From Arcobacter sp. CECT 8985 (lineage in GTDB: Bacteria > Campylobacterota > Campylobacteria > Campylobacterales > Arcobacteraceae): a stretch of DNA of 64,000 bases. Below, piece after piece: positions 1,138 to 10,413 of the stretch (positions within the stretch are counted from its first letter, which is position 1; each line of letters opens with the position of its first letter). Both the position numbers and the translations under genes were made by a program. The stretch is taken from the NCBI RefSeq assembly GCF_004116495.1, contig NZ_PDKC01000002.1, forward strand, positions 62,001 to 126,000. Reading direction: 5' to 3'. Below the pieces are notes generated by a model. The model worked only from the letters and a program-made list of their open reading frames with translations. It was not told where the DNA came from and ran no database searches.

Positions 1138-2166
<1,029 letters not shown>

Positions 2167-2202
2167 AAAATAAAAATAATTATAAAAGAATAAGGAGAAA
2201 AA

Positions 2203-2556
2203 ATGTTTATTTGTGGATACCACTTTCCAGCTGATATGGGAAATGATGTAAGTTTTGATAAAGTTATTGAAAAAGTAGAAGATGGAGTTGATGCAAAAGG
2301 TAAAACTGTTACATTAACAAGTGAAACAAAAGAAGGAACTATTATTGAAGAATTAGTAGTTCCTGAAGGTACTTTTGCACATACAGCATTTGTTGATTAT
2401 TTTGAAAGTTCTGAAATTGAAGGTGATACTAAAATGATTTATTACACAAATAAGTATCAAATTTCTGAAATTTCAAAAAGTGTTGATAAAGAAATAACTA
2501 AAGATCTTTGTAAAAAACTTGATGATATGAATCTTTACAGAGTAAAAGTAGCATAA
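2203..2556 (+). CDS. Unknown 117-residue protein between nifH and nifD
   Basis: I do not recognise this protein. It is small, acidic and soluble, with no signal peptide, no membrane segment and a single Cys near the N-terminus (MFICGYHF) plus another near the C-terminus (DLCKKL). The middle is rich in Thr, Glu and Val and looks beta-stranded; the C-terminal third looks helical. A good ribosome-binding site (AAGGAG) precedes ATG 2203. It sits 36 bases after nifH and 18 bases before nifD, so it is almost certainly co-transcribed with the structural nitrogenase genes. The size recalls the PII-like NifI proteins that occupy this position in methanogens, but I see no PII T-loop or signature. A role in nitrogenase regulation, protection or assembly is an inference from position only. 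Confidence 0.85.
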   Translation: MFICGYHFPADMGNDVSFDKVIEKVEDGVDAKGKTVTLTSETKEGTIIEELVVPEGTFAHTAFVDYFESSEIEGDTKMIYYTNKYQISEISKSVDKEITKDLCKKLDDMNLYRVKVA

Positions 2557-2574: not shown

Positions 2575-4041
2575 ATGGGAGAAGAAACATTAGAAGCTCA
2601 GCAGAAACAAGTAATTGAAGAAGTTTTAAGTGCTTACCCTGCTAAAGCTGCAAAAAACAGAGCTAAACATATTGGGGTTGATAGTCCTGAGGGAGTAAAA
2701 GGTTCTTGTGACACAACAAAAAGTAACAAACAGTCAGTTCCTGGAGTAATGAGTGAAAGAGGATGCGCATATGCAGGTTCTAAAGGAGTTGTTTGGGGAC
2801 CAATTAAAGATATGATTCATATCTCTCATGGTCCTATTGGATGTGGACAATATTCAAGAGGTGGAAGAAGAAATTATTATATAGGTACAACTGGTGTTGA
2901 TACATTTGTAACTATGAACTTCTCTACTGATTTTAATGAAAAAGATATTGTATTTGGTGGAGATAAGAAATTAAAAAAAGCATTAGAAGAAATTGATGAA
3001 TTATTTCCGTTAAATAATGGTATCTCAGTTCAATCTGAGTGTCCAATTGGGTTAATTGGTGATGATATTCAATCTGTTGCAAAAATTCACAAAAAAGAGA
3101 CTGGACATCAAACAGTTGCAGTTTCATGTGAAGGGTTTAGGGGTGTATCTCAATCTCTTGGTCACCATATTGCAAATGATATGATTAGAGATCATGTTAT
3201 GCCAGATAACTCATATAAAAAAGATTTTGAATCAACTCCATATGATGTATCAATTATTGGAGATTATAATATTGGTGGAGATGCATGGGCAACAAGAATT
3301 TTATTGGAAGAAATAGGATTAAGAGTAATTGCTCAATGGTCTGGAGATGCTTCTTATAAAGAGATGGCAATTGCACCAAAATCAAAATTAAATTTACTTC
3401 ATTGTTATAGATCAATGAATTATATTTCAAGACATATGGAACAAGAGTTTGGTATTCCATGGATGGAATATAACTTTTTTGGACCTTCAAATACTACTGA
3501 AAGTTTAAGAAAAATAGCAGCTTTTTTTGATGAAAAAGTTCAAAAGAAAACTGAAGAAGTTATTGCTAAATATACAAAAATGACAGATGAGGTTATTGCT
3601 AAATATAAGCCTTTATTAGAAGGTAAAAAAGTAATGCTTTATGTTGGTGGATTAAGACCAAGACATGTTATTGGAGCATATGAAGATTTAGGAATGGAAG
3701 TAATAGGAACTGGTTATGAGTTTGCTCATGGGGATGATTATAAAAGAACAAAAGAAGATTTAAAAAGATCTACTTTAATTTATGATGATGTAAATGAGTA
3801 TGAACTTGGACAATTTGTTAAAAAAATGAGACCAGATTTAGTAGCAGCAGGTGTAAAAGAAAAATATGTATTCCAAAAAATGGGATTACCTTTTAGACAA
3901 ATGCACTCATGGGATTATAGTGGTCCTTATCATGGATATGATGCATTTGCTGTATTTGCAAAAGATATGGATTTAGCTATGAATTCACCTGTTTGGAATC
4001 ATACTAAAGCACCATGGGAAAAAGAAGAGATAGGAGCGTAA
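2575..4041 (+). CDS. nifD: Nitrogenase molybdenum-iron protein alpha chain NifD
   Basis: NifD carries the FeMo-cofactor and, with NifK, the P-cluster. P-cluster Cys ligands are C64 (ERGCAYAG), C90 (GPIGCGQ) and C156 (SECPIG). FeMoco ligands are C277 ([11 protein letters not shown]) and H444 ([14 protein letters not shown]); the cofactor-pocket residues Q193 and H197 of [14 protein letters not shown] are present. Length of 488 residues is normal for the Mo enzyme, and these motifs rule out a V- or Fe-only type. It follows the unknown small gene and is separated from nifK by a single base, which suggests translational coupling for equal subunit supply. Confidence 0.98.
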
Positions 4042-4042
4042 T

Positions 4043-5590
4043 ATGCAAGACGTAGATAATATAGTAAATGGACAAAAACTTTTTTTAAAGCCAGAATATC
4101 AAGAAGTTTTAAAAAATAAAAAACAATTTGAAAGTTCTGTTGGATCAACAGATCCCCAAAAAGTACAAGAGATTGGTGAATGGACTAAATCTTGGGAATA
4201 TAGAGAAAAAAACCTAAATAGAGAAGCAATTACAATTAATCCAGCTAAAGCTTGTCAACCTTTAGGTGCTGTTATGGTAGGACTTGGTTTTGAGAATACA
4301 ATGCCTTATGTTCATGGTTCTCATGGGTGTGTTGCATATTTTAGAACTTATTTTACTAGACATTTTAAAGAACCAACTCCTTGTGTAAGTGATTCTATGT
4401 CTGAATCAGCTGCAGTTTTTGGTGGATTAGCAAATATGAAAGATGGTTTGAGAAACTGTAATGCTTTATACAAACCAGATATGATTGCAGTTTCTACTAC
4501 TTGTATGGCAGAAGTTATTGGAGATGATTTAAATGCATTTGTATCAGGTGCAAGAGAGTACGCAGAAGGTGAATTAGATAATGTTGAAATCCCTTATGCA
4601 CATACACCATCTTTTGTTGGTTCACATATTACAGGTTATGATAATATGATGAAAGCAACATTAGAACAATTAAATCCATCAAAAGAACAAAAGGTTCTAG
4701 ATGAAGAAAGAATAAATATAATTCCTGGATTTGAGCCATATTTAGGTTCTTTAAAAGAGATTAAAAATATTTCTAAAATGTTCAGTGATAAGATTATTAT
4801 GATTGGTGATCATGAAGAGCAGTGGGATACTGGAGCTGGCGAATATAAATTATATGCTGGTGGAACAAAAATTGAAGATGCAAAAACTGCAATTAATGCA
4901 AAAACTACAATCTCTTTACAAAAATATTCTACAGTTTCAACTGCAAAAACTATTAAAAACAAATGGAAACAAGAATATGCAACTTGTAATCCAATTGGTT
5001 TAAGTGGTACAGATGCTTTTGTTATGAAATTATCTGAATTAACTAATAAAGAAGTTCCAAATGAATTAAAAAATCAAAGAGCTAAATTAGTTGATGCAAT
5101 GCAAGATTCATATCCATATATGCATGCTAAAAAGTTTGCTATTTGGGGAGATCCTGACTTCTTATTAGGTATGGTTTCTTTTTTAGTTGAAATGGGATCT
5201 ATTCCAACACACATAGTTTGTCATAATGCTCCAAGAAAAGGTTGGGAAGATGAGATGAAAGCTATATTGGAAAAATCTGATAGAGCTGAAGAGTGTAATA
5301 TTTGGCCTGGTAAAGATTTATGGGCATTAAGAAGTTTATTGTTTACTGAGCCAGTTGATTATATGATTGGTAATGTTTATGGAAAAGAGTTATATAGAGA
5401 TACAAAAATTCCATTAATTAGAATTGGTTTCCCTATATTTGATAGACACCATTTACATAGATATTCAATAAGTGGATATGAAGGTGCACTTAACTTATTA
5501 ACATGGATTACAAATTCAATTTTAGATCATTTAGATGAAGAAACTAAAAATATTGCTGAAACAGATTACTTCTTTGATTCAGTAAGATAA
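4043..5590 (+). CDS. nifK: Nitrogenase molybdenum-iron protein beta chain NifK
   Basis: NifK is the beta subunit of the alpha2-beta2 MoFe protein and completes the P-cluster. The Cys ligands are C71 (KACQPLGA), C96 (GSHGCVAYF) and C154 (TTCMAEVIGDD). Length of 515 residues is close to the Azotobacter protein. The N-terminal region before C71 is of the long form seen in Mo nitrogenases. It is last in the nifH operon: a strong intrinsic terminator begins immediately after the stop codon. The assembly genes nifE, nifN and nifB are not in this window. Confidence 0.98.
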   Translation: MQDVDNIVNGQKLFLKPEYQEVLKNKKQFESSVGSTDPQKVQEIGEWTKSWEYREKNLNREAITINPAKACQPLGAVMVGLGFENTMPYVHGSHGCVAYFRTYFTRHFKEPTPCVSDSMSESAAVFGGLANMKDGLRNCNALYKPDMIAVSTTCMAEVIGDDLNAFVSGAREYAEGELDNVEIPYAHTPSFVGSHITGYDNMMKATLEQLNPSKEQKVLDEERINIIPGFEPYLGSLKEIKNISKMFSDKIIMIGDHEEQWDTGAGEYKLYAGGTKIEDAKTAINAKTTISLQKYSTVSTAKTIKNKWKQEYATCNPIGLSGTDAFVMKLSELTNKEVPNELKNQRAKLVDAMQDSYPYMHAKKFAIWGDPDFLLGMVSFLVEMGSIPTHIVCHNAPRKGWEDEMKAILEKSDRAEECNIWPGKDLWALRSLLFTEPVDYMIGNVYGKELYRDTKIPLIRIGFPIFDRHHLHRYSISGYEGALNLLTWITNSILDHLDEETKNIAETDYFFDSVR

Positions 5591-5788: not shown

Positions 5789-6901
5789 ATGTCTTATGCA
5801 ACACCTCAATCAACATATAATTTTGCAAAAAAATTTTCATCTTATAAAGATTTTTATGTTAAACATAATGATTTAGTTTTTTCAAGATTAGGCTTAGGTA
5901 CTTTTAATAAAGAGCCTTATAAAGAAGAAAATTATGTTTTTCATTATATAGAAGGTGTTAAAGAAGCAATAAAAAATGGAATAAATTTAATAGATACAGC
6001 AAGTAATTATAGATATGGACAAAGTGAAAAAGAAATAGCAATAGCATTAAAAGAGTTATTCAATGAAAATAAAGTAACAAGAGAAGAGTTGATTATTTGT
6101 TCAAAAGCTGGATTTATTCAACTTGACTATCCTTTCCCAAAAAATCCGTATATGTGGATTGAAGAAAATATTATAAATACTAACTTGGCAAGAAAAGAAG
6201 ATATTGAATTAGATCAACACTGTATGACACCTGATTTTATAGAGTGGTCATGTAAAAAATCATTAAAAAACTTGCAAATTGATTCAATAGATATTTTCTT
6301 TTTACATAATCCAGAAATGCAATTAATGTCACTTGGTTATAAAAATTTATTAAAACAAGTAGAAAAAGTATTTAAAAGATTTGAAAAAATGGCTGATTGT
6401 GGACTTATAAAATATTATGGAGTTGCTGTTTGGAATGCTTTTATTAATAGTGAAGATTCAAAAGAGCATATAAATTTAGAAGATTTAGTTAATATTGCAA
6501 TTAAAGTAGGTGGGGAAAATCATAGATTTAAATATATTCAAACGCCATTTAATTTAGCAAAAACTTCAATATATACTTTGCAATCACAAAAAGTTAAAAA
6601 TGAAAAATGTACTTTACTACAAGCTGCACATAGATTAAATATTGGTTTAATTTCAAGTTCATCTTTATTACAAATGAATCTTTTTAAACGCTCTTTTAAA
6701 GCAGAAATGGGATATTTACTAGATTCACAAATGATTTTAGAAAATGATATTCAACTTGCATTACAATTTGTTCGTTCAACACCTGGAATTATTAGTTCAC
6801 TATTTGCTTCAAAAGTTCCTGTACATATTAAGAAAAATTTAGAAATAACAAAAATTAAATCAGTACCAAGAAAAAAGTATGATTTAATGTATAAAGTTTA
6901 A
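5789..6901 (+). CDS. Aldo/keto reductase family protein
   Basis: A TIM-barrel NAD(P)H-dependent oxidoreductase of the aldo/keto reductase superfamily. All four catalytic residues can be placed: D69 and Y76 in IDTASNYRYG, K106 in ICSKAG and H173 in FFLHNPE. At 370 residues it is longer than the usual 310-330; the extra lies in a loop after the lysine (about residues 110-150) containing a Cys and in the C-terminus. The physiological substrate cannot be read from sequence. Ribosome-binding site AAGGAA precedes the ATG. It is first in an operon with a flavoprotein (2-base gap) and nifT, downstream of a sigma-54 promoter, so it should be made only when nitrogenase is made. Confidence 0.88.
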   Translation: MSYATPQSTYNFAKKFSSYKDFYVKHNDLVFSRLGLGTFNKEPYKEENYVFHYIEGVKEAIKNGINLIDTASNYRYGQSEKEIAIALKELFNENKVTREELIICSKAGFIQLDYPFPKNPYMWIEENIINTNLARKEDIELDQHCMTPDFIEWSCKKSLKNLQIDSIDIFFLHNPEMQLMSLGYKNLLKQVEKVFKRFEKMADCGLIKYYGVAVWNAFINSEDSKEHINLEDLVNIAIKVGGENHRFKYIQTPFNLAKTSIYTLQSQKVKNEKCTLLQAAHRLNIGLISSSSLLQMNLFKRSFKAEMGYLLDSQMILENDIQLALQFVRSTPGIISSLFASKVPVHIKKNLEITKIKSVPRKKYDLMYKV

Positions 6902-6903
6902 TT

Positions 6904-8553
6904 ATGATTTATGATGTAATTATAGTAGGTGGAGGAATTTCTGGTTTAATGGCAGCTATTGAAGCTAAAACATCTTCAAACAAAGTAGCAATAATTACAA
7001 AAGGTAATATTTTTAAATCAAATTCATCAATGGCATGTGGTGGAATAAATGCTGTTTTAGATGAAAAAGATAATCAAAAAATTCAATCTCATATAGAAGA
7101 TACATATAAATCTTCATTAGGTTTAGCAAATTTACAAAATATTACATATATGTGTAATCGTGCAAGTAAGATTATATCAAAATTAAAACTTTATGGGGTT
7201 GATTTTGATAAAGATGAATCAGGTAATATAATGCAAAGACCTTTTGGTGGAGGAAGACATAATAGAACATGTTATGTAAAAGATAAAACTGGAAGTGCAA
7301 TTACTCAGGTTTTAATAAAACAAGCAAAAAGATTAGGTATCACTTTTTTAGTTAATACTTTTGTTTTAAATCTTTCAACACATAAAAAAAGAGTAAGTGG
7401 TGTAATTGCTTTAAGAAGGGTTGATTCAAATGTATTAGTTTATCCTGCTAAATCTGTAGTATTTGCAGGTGGTGGGTATGCAGGAATATTTAGAGGTAAT
7501 TCCACAAATGCACAAGATTATACTGGAGATCTAACTGCTGTTTGTTTAAGAGCAGGATTAACTTTGAAAGATATGGAATTTATTCAATTTCATCCTACTG
7601 GAATTAAAAAGACAAATTATTTGGTAACTGAAGCGGCAAGAGCAGAAGGAGGATATTTAGTCAATGAAAATAATGAAAGATTTGTTAATGAATTAGATAC
7701 AAGAGATAAAATTGCAAAAGCCATAATACAACAACAAAATAATCATAAAAAAGTATATATTGATTTAAGGCATTTAGGTTTAAACAAAATTCAACAGAAA
7801 CTTCCATCTTTATATAATGCTGCATTTAATCAAGTTGGTATTGATATAAGTAAAGAGTTACTTCAAATTAAACCTGTTGCTCATTATAGTATGGGTGGAG
7901 TTGAAGTTATAAATATGGTAGAAAGCAAAATTGCAGGACTATTTATTTGTGGAGAAATGGCAAACACACAAGTTCATGGGGCAAATAGATTAGGTGGAAA
8001 TTCATTATTGGAAGCGACAGTTTTTGGTGAATTAGCTGGACAAAAAGCTTTGAGTTATAGTTGTGAAAATAGTTTTGAGATAATTAATTATAACAATGTA
8101 ATAAAAGATATAGAGATGATAGATTATATTTTTTCTTCTGATAGTTCAAAAAATTTTAATGCAATTAGAGTTTCACTTGGTAATTGTATGTATGAAAATG
8201 TTGGAATAATTAGAACTGAAGATAGCTTAATTAAAGCATTTGATTACATAAAATATCTAAGAACACAATCTTATACTTTGCACTGTATAAATAAAGAAAG
8301 AAGAAATAATGTTGAGCTTACTTCAATTTTAGAATTAAGAAATGCTCTTGAAATATCAGAAGCAATTATATTAAGTGCTAATTTAAGAAAAGAGAGTAGA
8401 GGATCTCATTTTAGAGAAGATTATCCTTCTTTAGATGAATATTATAACAAACATATTTTGGTTAATGAAATAAAGAAAGGTTTTTTTAAACTAGAATTTG
8501 AAGAAAATAGTTTTTTATCAAGTATTAGAAGTTTATTGATAAATAAAAATTAA
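6904..8553 (+). CDS. FAD-dependent oxidoreductase of the fumarate reductase/L-aspartate oxidase family
   Basis: A 549-residue flavoprotein with an N-terminal dinucleotide-binding motif (VGGGISG, residues 8-14) and the family signatures FIQFHPTG, EAARAEGGYLVN, AHYSMGG and VHGANRLGGNSLLE, and a C-terminal RGSHFREDYP. The HYSMGG and RLGGNS versions are closer to SdhA/FrdA than to NadB. The residue that binds FAD covalently in SdhA/FrdA (His before the AxxGGIN motif) is missing here (SNSSMACGGIN), so the FAD should be non-covalent as in NadB. There is no iron-sulfur or membrane-anchor partner next to it. Possible roles are a soluble fumarate reductase, an aspartate-oxidase-like enzyme or an electron-disposal protein. 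It follows the aldo/keto reductase by two bases and precedes nifT in a sigma-54-controlled operon. Confidence 0.85.
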   Translation: MIYDVIIVGGGISGLMAAIEAKTSSNKVAIITKGNIFKSNSSMACGGINAVLDEKDNQKIQSHIEDTYKSSLGLANLQNITYMCNRASKIISKLKLYGVDFDKDESGNIMQRPFGGGRHNRTCYVKDKTGSAITQVLIKQAKRLGITFLVNTFVLNLSTHKKRVSGVIALRRVDSNVLVYPAKSVVFAGGGYAGIFRGNSTNAQDYTGDLTAVCLRAGLTLKDMEFIQFHPTGIKKTNYLVTEAARAEGGYLVNENNERFVNELDTRDKIAKAIIQQQNNHKKVYIDLRHLGLNKIQQKLPSLYNAAFNQVGIDISKELLQIKPVAHYSMGGVEVINMVESKIAGLFICGEMANTQVHGANRLGGNSLLEATVFGELAGQKALSYSCENSFEIINYNNVIKDIEMIDYIFSSDSSKNFNAIRVSLGNCMYENVGIIRTEDSLIKAFDYIKYLRTQSYTLHCINKERRNNVELTSILELRNALEISEAIILSANLRKESRGSHFREDYPSLDEYYNKHILVNEIKKGFFKLEFEENSFLSSIRSLLINKN

Positions 8554-8562
8554 GGAGAGAGT

Positions 8563-8769
8563 ATGGCAAAAGTAATGTTAAGAGAAAAAGATGAAAAAAT
8601 ATACTTTTATATTGCAAAAAAAGATATGGAAGAAATAATAGAGAGTTTAGAATTTAATACACCTGATAATTGGGGTGGAGAGGTTGAATTATCAAATGGT
8701 GAAACTTGGTGGATAAAGCCAGGAGTGAAAAAATTACCCAAAGAAGAAGTTTGTAAAAAAATAAAATGA
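8563..8769 (+). CDS. nifT: NifT/FixU family protein
   Basis: A 68-residue protein matching the NifT pattern: MAKVMLRE at the start, an IAKKDMEE segment near residue 18 (YVPKKDLEE in Azotobacter), and the core NWGGEVELSNGETWWI near 37-52. NifT is a small nitrogenase-associated protein of unsettled function, usually found just after nifK or nifD and dispensable in tested organisms. Here it closes the reductase-flavoprotein operon, nine bases after the flavoprotein, and is separated from nifK by about 3 kb. Ribosome-binding site AAGGAGAG precedes its ATG. Confidence 0.88.
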   Translation: MAKVMLREKDEKIYFYIAKKDMEEIIESLEFNTPDNWGGEVELSNGETWWIKPGVKKLPKEEVCKKIK

Positions 8770-8834: not shown

Positions 8835-8868
8835 ACAACTATAATATTTGATAATGAAGGACAAGAAT

Positions 8869-10413
8869 ATGGCACTTTTTGATAAAACAGCATGTATGAG
8901 TTGTCTTACATTAAAGGAATTAACAACTTTATATGATATTGCATCAGTAATATCAAATCATTACGATTTAGAGACTTCATTAGAAAAATCAATGAAGATA
9001 TTAAAAAACTCTTTACACCTAACAAATTGTTCGGTTCATCTTCTAGAAGAAGACGACATACTAAATGTATTTGCATCTGTTGAACTAAGCGTGATTCAAA
9101 AAAAATTATCATGTTACAAGTTAGGTGAAGGAGTTACTGGTTTAGCAGCTGAATCAAAAGAACCTGTAGTAGTTGAAAATATACATAGTGATTCTTTATT
9201 TTTAAATAAATCGGGAAAAAGAGATTTAAATAATTTGTCATATGTAGCTGTTCCTTTAATTATAGAAGATGAAACTTTAGGTGTTTTGGGAGCTACTTTA
9301 ACAAAAACAACTGAAATAGGATTTGATGACTGTGTTAGAATTTTAACTATAGTTTCATCAATTTTTGCGCAATCAATATATTCATATCTTTTAAATAAAA
9401 AAGAGAAAGAGAGATTAAAAGAGTTAAAACTCTACTATAAAATGGAATGGGATTCAAAAGTACATAATTTTGGGGATATTATTGGGGACAGCCCTAAAAT
9501 GAAGCAAGTTTTTAATGCAATTCAAAGAATTGCTCAATCTGATGTGACTGTATTTGTTCGTGGAGAAACAGGTACTGGAAAAGAGCTAGTTGCTGCTGCT
9601 ATTCATAAAAGAAGTAAAAGAAAAGATGAACCGTTTATCAAATTAAACTGTGCAGCAATAACAGATAGTTTATTGGAAAGTGAACTTTTTGGACATGAAA
9701 AGGGTGCTTTTACTGATGCAAAAGAGACAAGAAAAGGTAGATTTGAACTTGCAGATGGGGGAACTTTATTTTTAGATGAAATCGGAGATATTTCAGCTTC
9801 TGCACAAGTAAAATTATTAAGAGTTCTACAAGAAAGAGAGTTTGAAAGAGTTGGTGGAAATAAGACTATTAAAGTAAATGTAAGACTTATTGCTGCAACA
9901 AATAGGAATCTTGAAGAGATGGTAAAACATGGAGATTTTAGAGAAGATTTATATTATAGATTAAATGTTATTCCAATTGATTTACCTCCACTAAGACAAA
10001 GAGGAGATGATATAAAACAATTAGTAGAATTTTTTCTTGAAAAAGCAATTAGAAATCATAAAAAAAGAGTAAGTATAACACCTGAAGCAATGGATATTTT
10101 AGCAACTTATCCTTGGCCTGGTAATGTAAGAGAACTTGAAAATACAATTGAACGAATTGTTTTAATGGGAAATGAAACAGGTGTAACAAAACATGATATG
10201 CTTTTATTACTTCCTGCATTAAATGATGATAATTTAAAAAAAGAGTATAAAACTATTCAATTAAAAAATAAAACACTTGACGAATTAGAAAAAGAAGCAA
10301 TTGAAAATGCTTTAATTAATAATAATTTAAATCAAGAATATGCAGCAACTGAGTTAGGGTTGACTTTTGAACAAATTAATAAAAAAATAAAAGAGTATGG
10401 AATATTACAATGA
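8869..10413 (+). CDS. nifA: Nif-specific sigma-54 activator NifA
   Basis: NifA is the enhancer-binding protein that opens sigma-54 promoters of nif genes. Order of parts: an N-terminal CMSC pair (C9, C12), a GAF domain (about 20-175), an AAA+ domain with Walker A GETGTGKE (232-239), the sigma-54 contact loop GAFTDA (279-284), Walker B LFLDEIGD (300-307), and a C-terminal Fis-type helix-turn-helix ending KEYGILQ. The loop has Asp where GAFTGA is canonical. The interdomain Cys pair of oxygen-sensitive proteobacterial NifA is absent. ATG 8869 is chosen because AAGGA (8857-8861) is well spaced; a TTG at 8848 would add seven residues. Its stop overlaps the next gene by four bases. Confidence 0.93.
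   Translation: MALFDKTACMSCLTLKELTTLYDIASVISNHYDLETSLEKSMKILKNSLHLTNCSVHLLEEDDILNVFASVELSVIQKKLSCYKLGEGVTGLAAESKEPVVVENIHSDSLFLNKSGKRDLNNLSYVAVPLIIEDETLGVLGATLTKTTEIGFDDCVRILTIVSSIFAQSIYSYLLNKKEKERLKELKLYYKMEWDSKVHNFGDIIGDSPKMKQVFNAIQRIAQSDVTVFVRGETGTGKELVAAAIHKRSKRKDEPFIKLNCAAITDSLLESELFGHEKGAFTDAKETRKGRFELADGGTLFLDEIGDISASAQVKLLRVLQEREFERVGGNKTIKVNVRLIAATNRNLEEMVKHGDFREDLYYRLNVIPIDLPPLRQRGDDIKQLVEFFLEKAIRNHKKRVSITPEAMDILATYPWPGNVRELENTIERIVLMGNETGVTKHDMLLLLPALNDDNLKKEYKTIQLKNKTLDELEKEAIENALINNNLNQEYAATELGLTFEQINKKIKEYGILQ

Follow-up and report, generated by a model that had tools for sequence, protein, structure and literature searches.

A near-obligatory small protein, apparently of a new family, encoded between nifH and nifD in the nitrogenase operons of Campylobacterota

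A 117-residue protein encoded between nifH and nifD of Arcobacter sp. CECT 8985 was found to be near-obligatory in the group-I nif operons of Campylobacterota. It appears to represent a new family, very probably serves nitrogenase in some way, and is probably a working, apparently unstudied part of the nitrogenase system of this phylum. The gene lies in a window of 64,000 nucleotides, the whole stretch of DNA that was analysed. A sequence-only reading of this window had placed the open reading frame (ORF) inside the structural nitrogenase operon, which was confirmed. The operon and its neighbourhood comprise the following features:

1203 to 1218, forward strand: sigma-54 (-24/-12) promoter-like site TGGAACATTAAATGCA, 52 nt 5' of the nifH ATG, score 9 of 11
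1255 to 2166, forward strand: nifH (TIGR01287, 423.8 bits, above the cut-off)
2192 to 2197, forward strand: ribosome-binding site AAGGAG of the ORF, as read from the sequence
2203 to 2556, forward strand: uncharacterised gene of 117 aa with ATG start, supported by orthologues and purifying selection
2575 to 4041, forward strand: nifD (tblastn, 70% identity to an annotated nifD)
4043 to 5590, forward strand: nifK (assigned by its position and its homology with NifK of related loci)
8563 to 8769, forward strand: nifT (TIGR02934, above the cut-off)
8848 to 10413, forward strand: nifA-like sigma-54 activator (best family TIGR01817 nifA with 504 bits, just missing the cut-off of 528.85)

The ORF is a real gene, because orthologues without internal stops were present in 73 of 397 Campylobacterota genomes and dN/dS against same-genus orthologues was 0.17-0.19, indicating purifying selection. 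The orthologues were distributed over 25 of 68 genera and shared 35-91% identity over nearly the full length. The gene is separated from nifH by 36 nt, and its product is an acidic protein of 13.2 kDa with a pI of 4.6. An rpoN-like gene was identified by reading upstream of the nif operon, and the nifA-like gene at 8848 to 10413 is likely the regulator of the operon. Between nifK and nifT, at window positions 5789-8553, an aldo/keto reductase and a flavoprotein resembling fumarate reductase or L-aspartate oxidase were encoded. The nif region of the same genome held two further proteins of note: one of 477 aa without Pfam match between nifE and cowN (L129:9003-10436) and one of 112 aa, matched by neither Pfam nor NCBIfam, that is flanked by nifZ and a ferredoxin-like gene (L129:14356-14694).

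Full NifH above the curated cut-off was detected in 72 of the 397 Campylobacterota genomes. The ORF was present in 71 of these and in 2 of the remaining 325 genomes (Fisher p ~4e-75, a descriptive value since the sampled genomes are related to one another). Absence from close diazotrophic relatives, which the sequence-only reading had named as a finding that would speak against its proposal, did not occur. The two genomes with the ORF and without full nifH were G377, with nifH cut by a contig edge, and G224, with a frameshifted nifH and segments lost from the ORF and nifD. The G224 cluster (L101:3833-5300) looks decayed, an assembly or sequencing artefact being the alternative. Its ORF lacks the TNRYQ segment and continues the reading frame of the NifH C-terminus, and its nifD lacks a conserved segment. 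A second, divergent NifH-like gene was located at G224:C1:70478-71218 (L102). In genome G367, a fragment of nifH lay at the end of a contig, and this genome was uninformative for the presence of the ORF.

The gene order nifH-ORF-nifD on one strand was conserved in 113 of 113 loci that included the upstream side, some of which represent the same genomes from two collections and are thus not all independent. One further locus started inside the ORF. Beyond this set, the genome_contigs collection, with one genome per species for 84,980 species, was scanned. The scan, which is sensitive to close relatives, yielded 48 loci and missed the tier of 35-50% identity even within the phylum. Records that named a group were assigned to genera or families of Campylobacterota, and the rest were MAGs titled broadly or without a name (as 'bacterium' or 'Proteobacteria bacterium'). 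At this sensitivity for close relatives, no close homologue was found outside Campylobacterota. Because the scan reaches close relatives only, the ORF is not claimed to be specific to the phylum.

Among the 72 genomes with full nifH, only G007 was without the ORF. It carried two PII (NifI-like) genes between nifH and nifD, a layout shared with Nitratidesulfovibrio, and its NifD had only 39% identity to the NifD of the window. The operon (L099:2105-9463) consists of nifH, the two PII genes, nifD, nifK and more nifD/nifK-like genes. G007 belongs to the same family as the ORF-bearing genomes G117 and G394. This single Desulfovibrio-type operon among 72 nifH genomes suggests horizontal acquisition. 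The two proteobacterial group-I nif operons that were inspected, from Rahnella and Cupriavidus, had no gene between nifH and nifD. The content of the slot therefore depends on the nitrogenase lineage: it is empty in Rahnella and Cupriavidus, occupied by a PII pair in G007 and Nitratidesulfovibrio, and occupied by the ORF described here in the other Campylobacterota operons. That a partner protein recurs in this slot raises the question why.

Likely co-expression with the nitrogenase genes, as proposed from the sequence, was supported by a conserved sigma-54-type site 5' of nifH. Among 106 related upstream regions, 75 scored at least 8 of 11, compared with 2.2% of shuffled sequences, and the related loci listed also showed a -24/-12 site near the 52-nt distance from nifH. 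Neither a sigma-54-type site nor a terminator-like site was found in the gap that separates nifH from the ORF. Judged from these signals, nifH, the ORF and nifD are presumably co-transcribed from a sigma-54/NifA-type promoter. The ORF evolves faster than the structural proteins, with a mean pairwise identity of 53% compared with 77-87% for NifHDK. Its pairwise identities correlated with those of NifD (r 0.91), NifK (0.90) and NifH (0.87). It follows that the nif block including the ORF is inherited as a unit, also in genus g21, which holds both sequence tiers of the ORF. The value of 0.91 with NifD is no evidence of contact because linked genes share trees anyway.

Neither the ORF protein alone nor 28 diverse family members or their profile gave a significant match in Pfam, NCBIfam or the PDB sequences. 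The initial statement that no family is recognisable thus held for single sequences and for the family, and the profile searches brought up no known family that would contradict it. Weak names such as Mso1 and Pesticin_RB were returned for few members each, differed between members and included no nitrogenase-related family. A plasmid search gave one chance-level match from Halococcus only, PHROGs gave nothing useful, and the viral fold library gave nothing at E<=0.001. In the open-access literature, no publication on the family was found, although absence there is no proof that none exists. Excerpts of PMC4674564, apparently on the Zeitz genome from which locus L002 comes, and of PMC12029903 discuss nifHDK and do not mention the intervening ORF. 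The FESNov families (PMC10849945, Fig. 2b) include uncharacterised genes beside nitrogen-cycle genes, among them nifH, nifI, nifD and nifK. The lengths of these families (52, 144, 48, 80 and 165 compared with 117) and the presence of nifI1/nifI2 among the nif genes appear to set them apart from the ORF, as judged from their description. Altogether, the family appears to be new, lying outside the curated families searched and without a description found in the open-access literature.

The family is characterised by a near-invariant N-terminal motif, MFxxGxHFPAxxGN, a second near-invariant motif, YTN[KR]YQ[IM]SE[IL]SK, and the residues D95, C103, D107 and M109. The only widely conserved Cys and His residues were C103 (93%) and H7 (96%). 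A ferredoxin-type cluster protein and a [2Fe-2S] protein similar to Shethna protein II (FeSII) were ruled out since conserved cluster ligands are absent. No ligand-sensing motif was recognised.

The structure prediction suggested by the sequence-only reading resulted in a confident alpha/beta fold. Two AlphaFold models, built on nearly the same alignment but led by different sequences, agreed with each other (pLDDT 86.9 and 89.8, pTM 0.81 and 0.84). The predicted fold opens with short N-terminal strands, after which come one helix, two strands, three helices and a last strand. A disordered conserved N-terminus, indicated by a pLDDT of 67-72 in the first model, was dropped because the second model gave 83-85. 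For both models, the top fold match, clearly above the rest, was the N-terminal domain of DapD (PF14790, e.g. 2rij of Campylobacter jejuni). Foldseek gave E 0.008-0.011 and TM 0.40-0.43. VIA aligned 101-104 residues at 4.5-4.6 A with Z 5.3-5.6, in a range (Z <8) that can reflect a common arrangement. The structural alignment showed 8-11% identity and there is no known functional link between the two proteins. PF14790 did not match the ORF in Pfam, and hhalign gave a probability of 0.2 (P 0.38). The predicted resemblance is thus a lead on the fold or origin of the protein, not on its function.

In group II/III nif operons, the slot between nifH and nifD holds NifI1 and NifI2, PII-type switches of nitrogenase that bind 2-oxoglutarate/ATP and inhibit NifDK. 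Like these, the ORF fills the slot in all loci and has a similar length; unlike them, it is one gene instead of two and belongs to another nitrogenase lineage. The earlier remark that the protein has the length of NifI and lacks its signatures was borne out: PII/NifI (PF00543) was rejected as identity, with no match in the 28 members at E<=1 and an hhalign probability of 0.08 compared with 96.6 for the NifI1-NifI2 control.

Our favoured reading, held tentatively, is that the ORF encodes a dedicated stoichiometric partner that modulates nitrogenase by binding NifH and/or NifDK. Its translation would fall between those of NifH and NifD on a single sigma-54/NifA-type message, so that the protein would be produced in concert with NifH and NifDK. 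It would bind one or both of them and most likely modulate the encounter of Fe protein and MoFe protein, either switching nitrogenase off reversibly or protecting it, much as NifI1/NifI2, encoded at this position in other nitrogenase operons, do. Position alone is no proof of function, and the near-universality fits an assembly factor or a subunit as well. Of the earlier proposal of a nitrogenase regulator, protector or accessory protein, the link to nitrogenase stood, with 71 of 72 genomes and the fixed slot in its favour. The narrower claim of a regulator or protector did not gain from the survey, as near-universality agrees about equally with assembly or structural roles.

A possible, somewhat less probable alternative is a factor for assembly or maturation. 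As a small chaperone, it would bind new NifH or apo-NifDK, aid cluster insertion or subunit stability and then leave. Known assembly factors for comparison are NifM, NafY/NifY, NifW and NifZ. Such a role is consistent with a near-obligatory protein that is translated exactly between its would-be clients, evolves faster than NifHDK and is without metal ligands. VIA rows for chaperone folds of FKBP/SlyD-type PPIases reached Z 2-3, too weak to weigh much. On the other hand, nifW, nifZ, nifX, the nifX-associated gene and nifT are all present in the genome of the ORF, leaving no obvious gap to be filled, and there was no profile similarity to known nif assembly families. By a small margin, a switch or protector is preferred over an assembly factor: other nitrogenases have a switch encoded in this slot, and the genome is already equipped with nifW, nifX, nifZ and nifT.

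Less probable again is that the ORF product forms a permanent additional subunit of the MoFe protein in Campylobacterota, comparable in type though not in sequence with the delta subunit AnfG/VnfG. The near-obligatory single-copy gene within the structural operon would suit a subunit. The AnfG/VnfG genes of alternative nitrogenases, however, sit between D and K, not between H and D as the ORF does in all loci. Identity with the delta subunit (PF03139) was rejected, with no match in the 28 members at E<=1. Moreover, NifD and NifK share about 65-70% identity with their proteobacterial group-I counterparts, which function without the ORF product.

It is unlikely that the ORF encodes a very distant CowN relative acting in a CowN-like manner on the MoFe protein as a second protein for gas protection (CO or O2). 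CowN is likewise a small nif-linked protein, which binds the MoFe protein directly and for which a 4-helix bundle has been published as a prediction only (PMC8047169). A short in-register resemblance between ORF residues 74-96 and CowN residues 61-83 was spotted by eye. With column-shuffled CowN as control, HMMER gave p 0.01 (best) and 0.03 (mean), values that are optimistic since CowN was chosen by eye, whereas hhalign did not score above shuffles (p 0.72). The CowN family PF20543 had no Pfam match to the ORF or the 28 members, and the predicted folds differ, alpha/beta for the ORF compared with the helical bundle. True cowN was found in 48 of 74 nif-bearing Campylobacterota genomes searched, which makes it facultative and the ORF much closer to obligatory. 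The genome of the ORF itself has a cowN between nifE and nifN, about 7 kb upstream of nifH and outside the window (L129:10500-10805, G000:C22), with 70.5 bits in NCBIfam at a cut-off of 48. A role of the ORF as a substitute for CowN in this genome was ruled out accordingly. A hitchhiker gene trapped in the nif operon with a function unrelated to nitrogenase is very unlikely: in 397 genomes the ORF occurred only together with a nif cluster or remnants of one, in 113 loci it was never outside its slot, and it is under purifying selection.

The ORF product appears to belong with the known class of small proteins that are encoded alongside nitrogenase and serve it, while the family itself appears to be new. 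Few enzymes have been studied as much as nitrogenase, yet the operon of this phylum holds a near-invariant protein outside all family libraries tested. The Mo-nitrogenase of Campylobacterota may work with an extra obligatory protein of a new family, be it a post-translational switch other than PII or an unseen subunit, a proposition that we put forward with reserve. If the protein controls, protects or assembles nitrogenase, it would be a missing part for N2 fixation by Campylobacterota of vents, sediments and roots, and possibly useful for the transfer of nitrogenase into other hosts.
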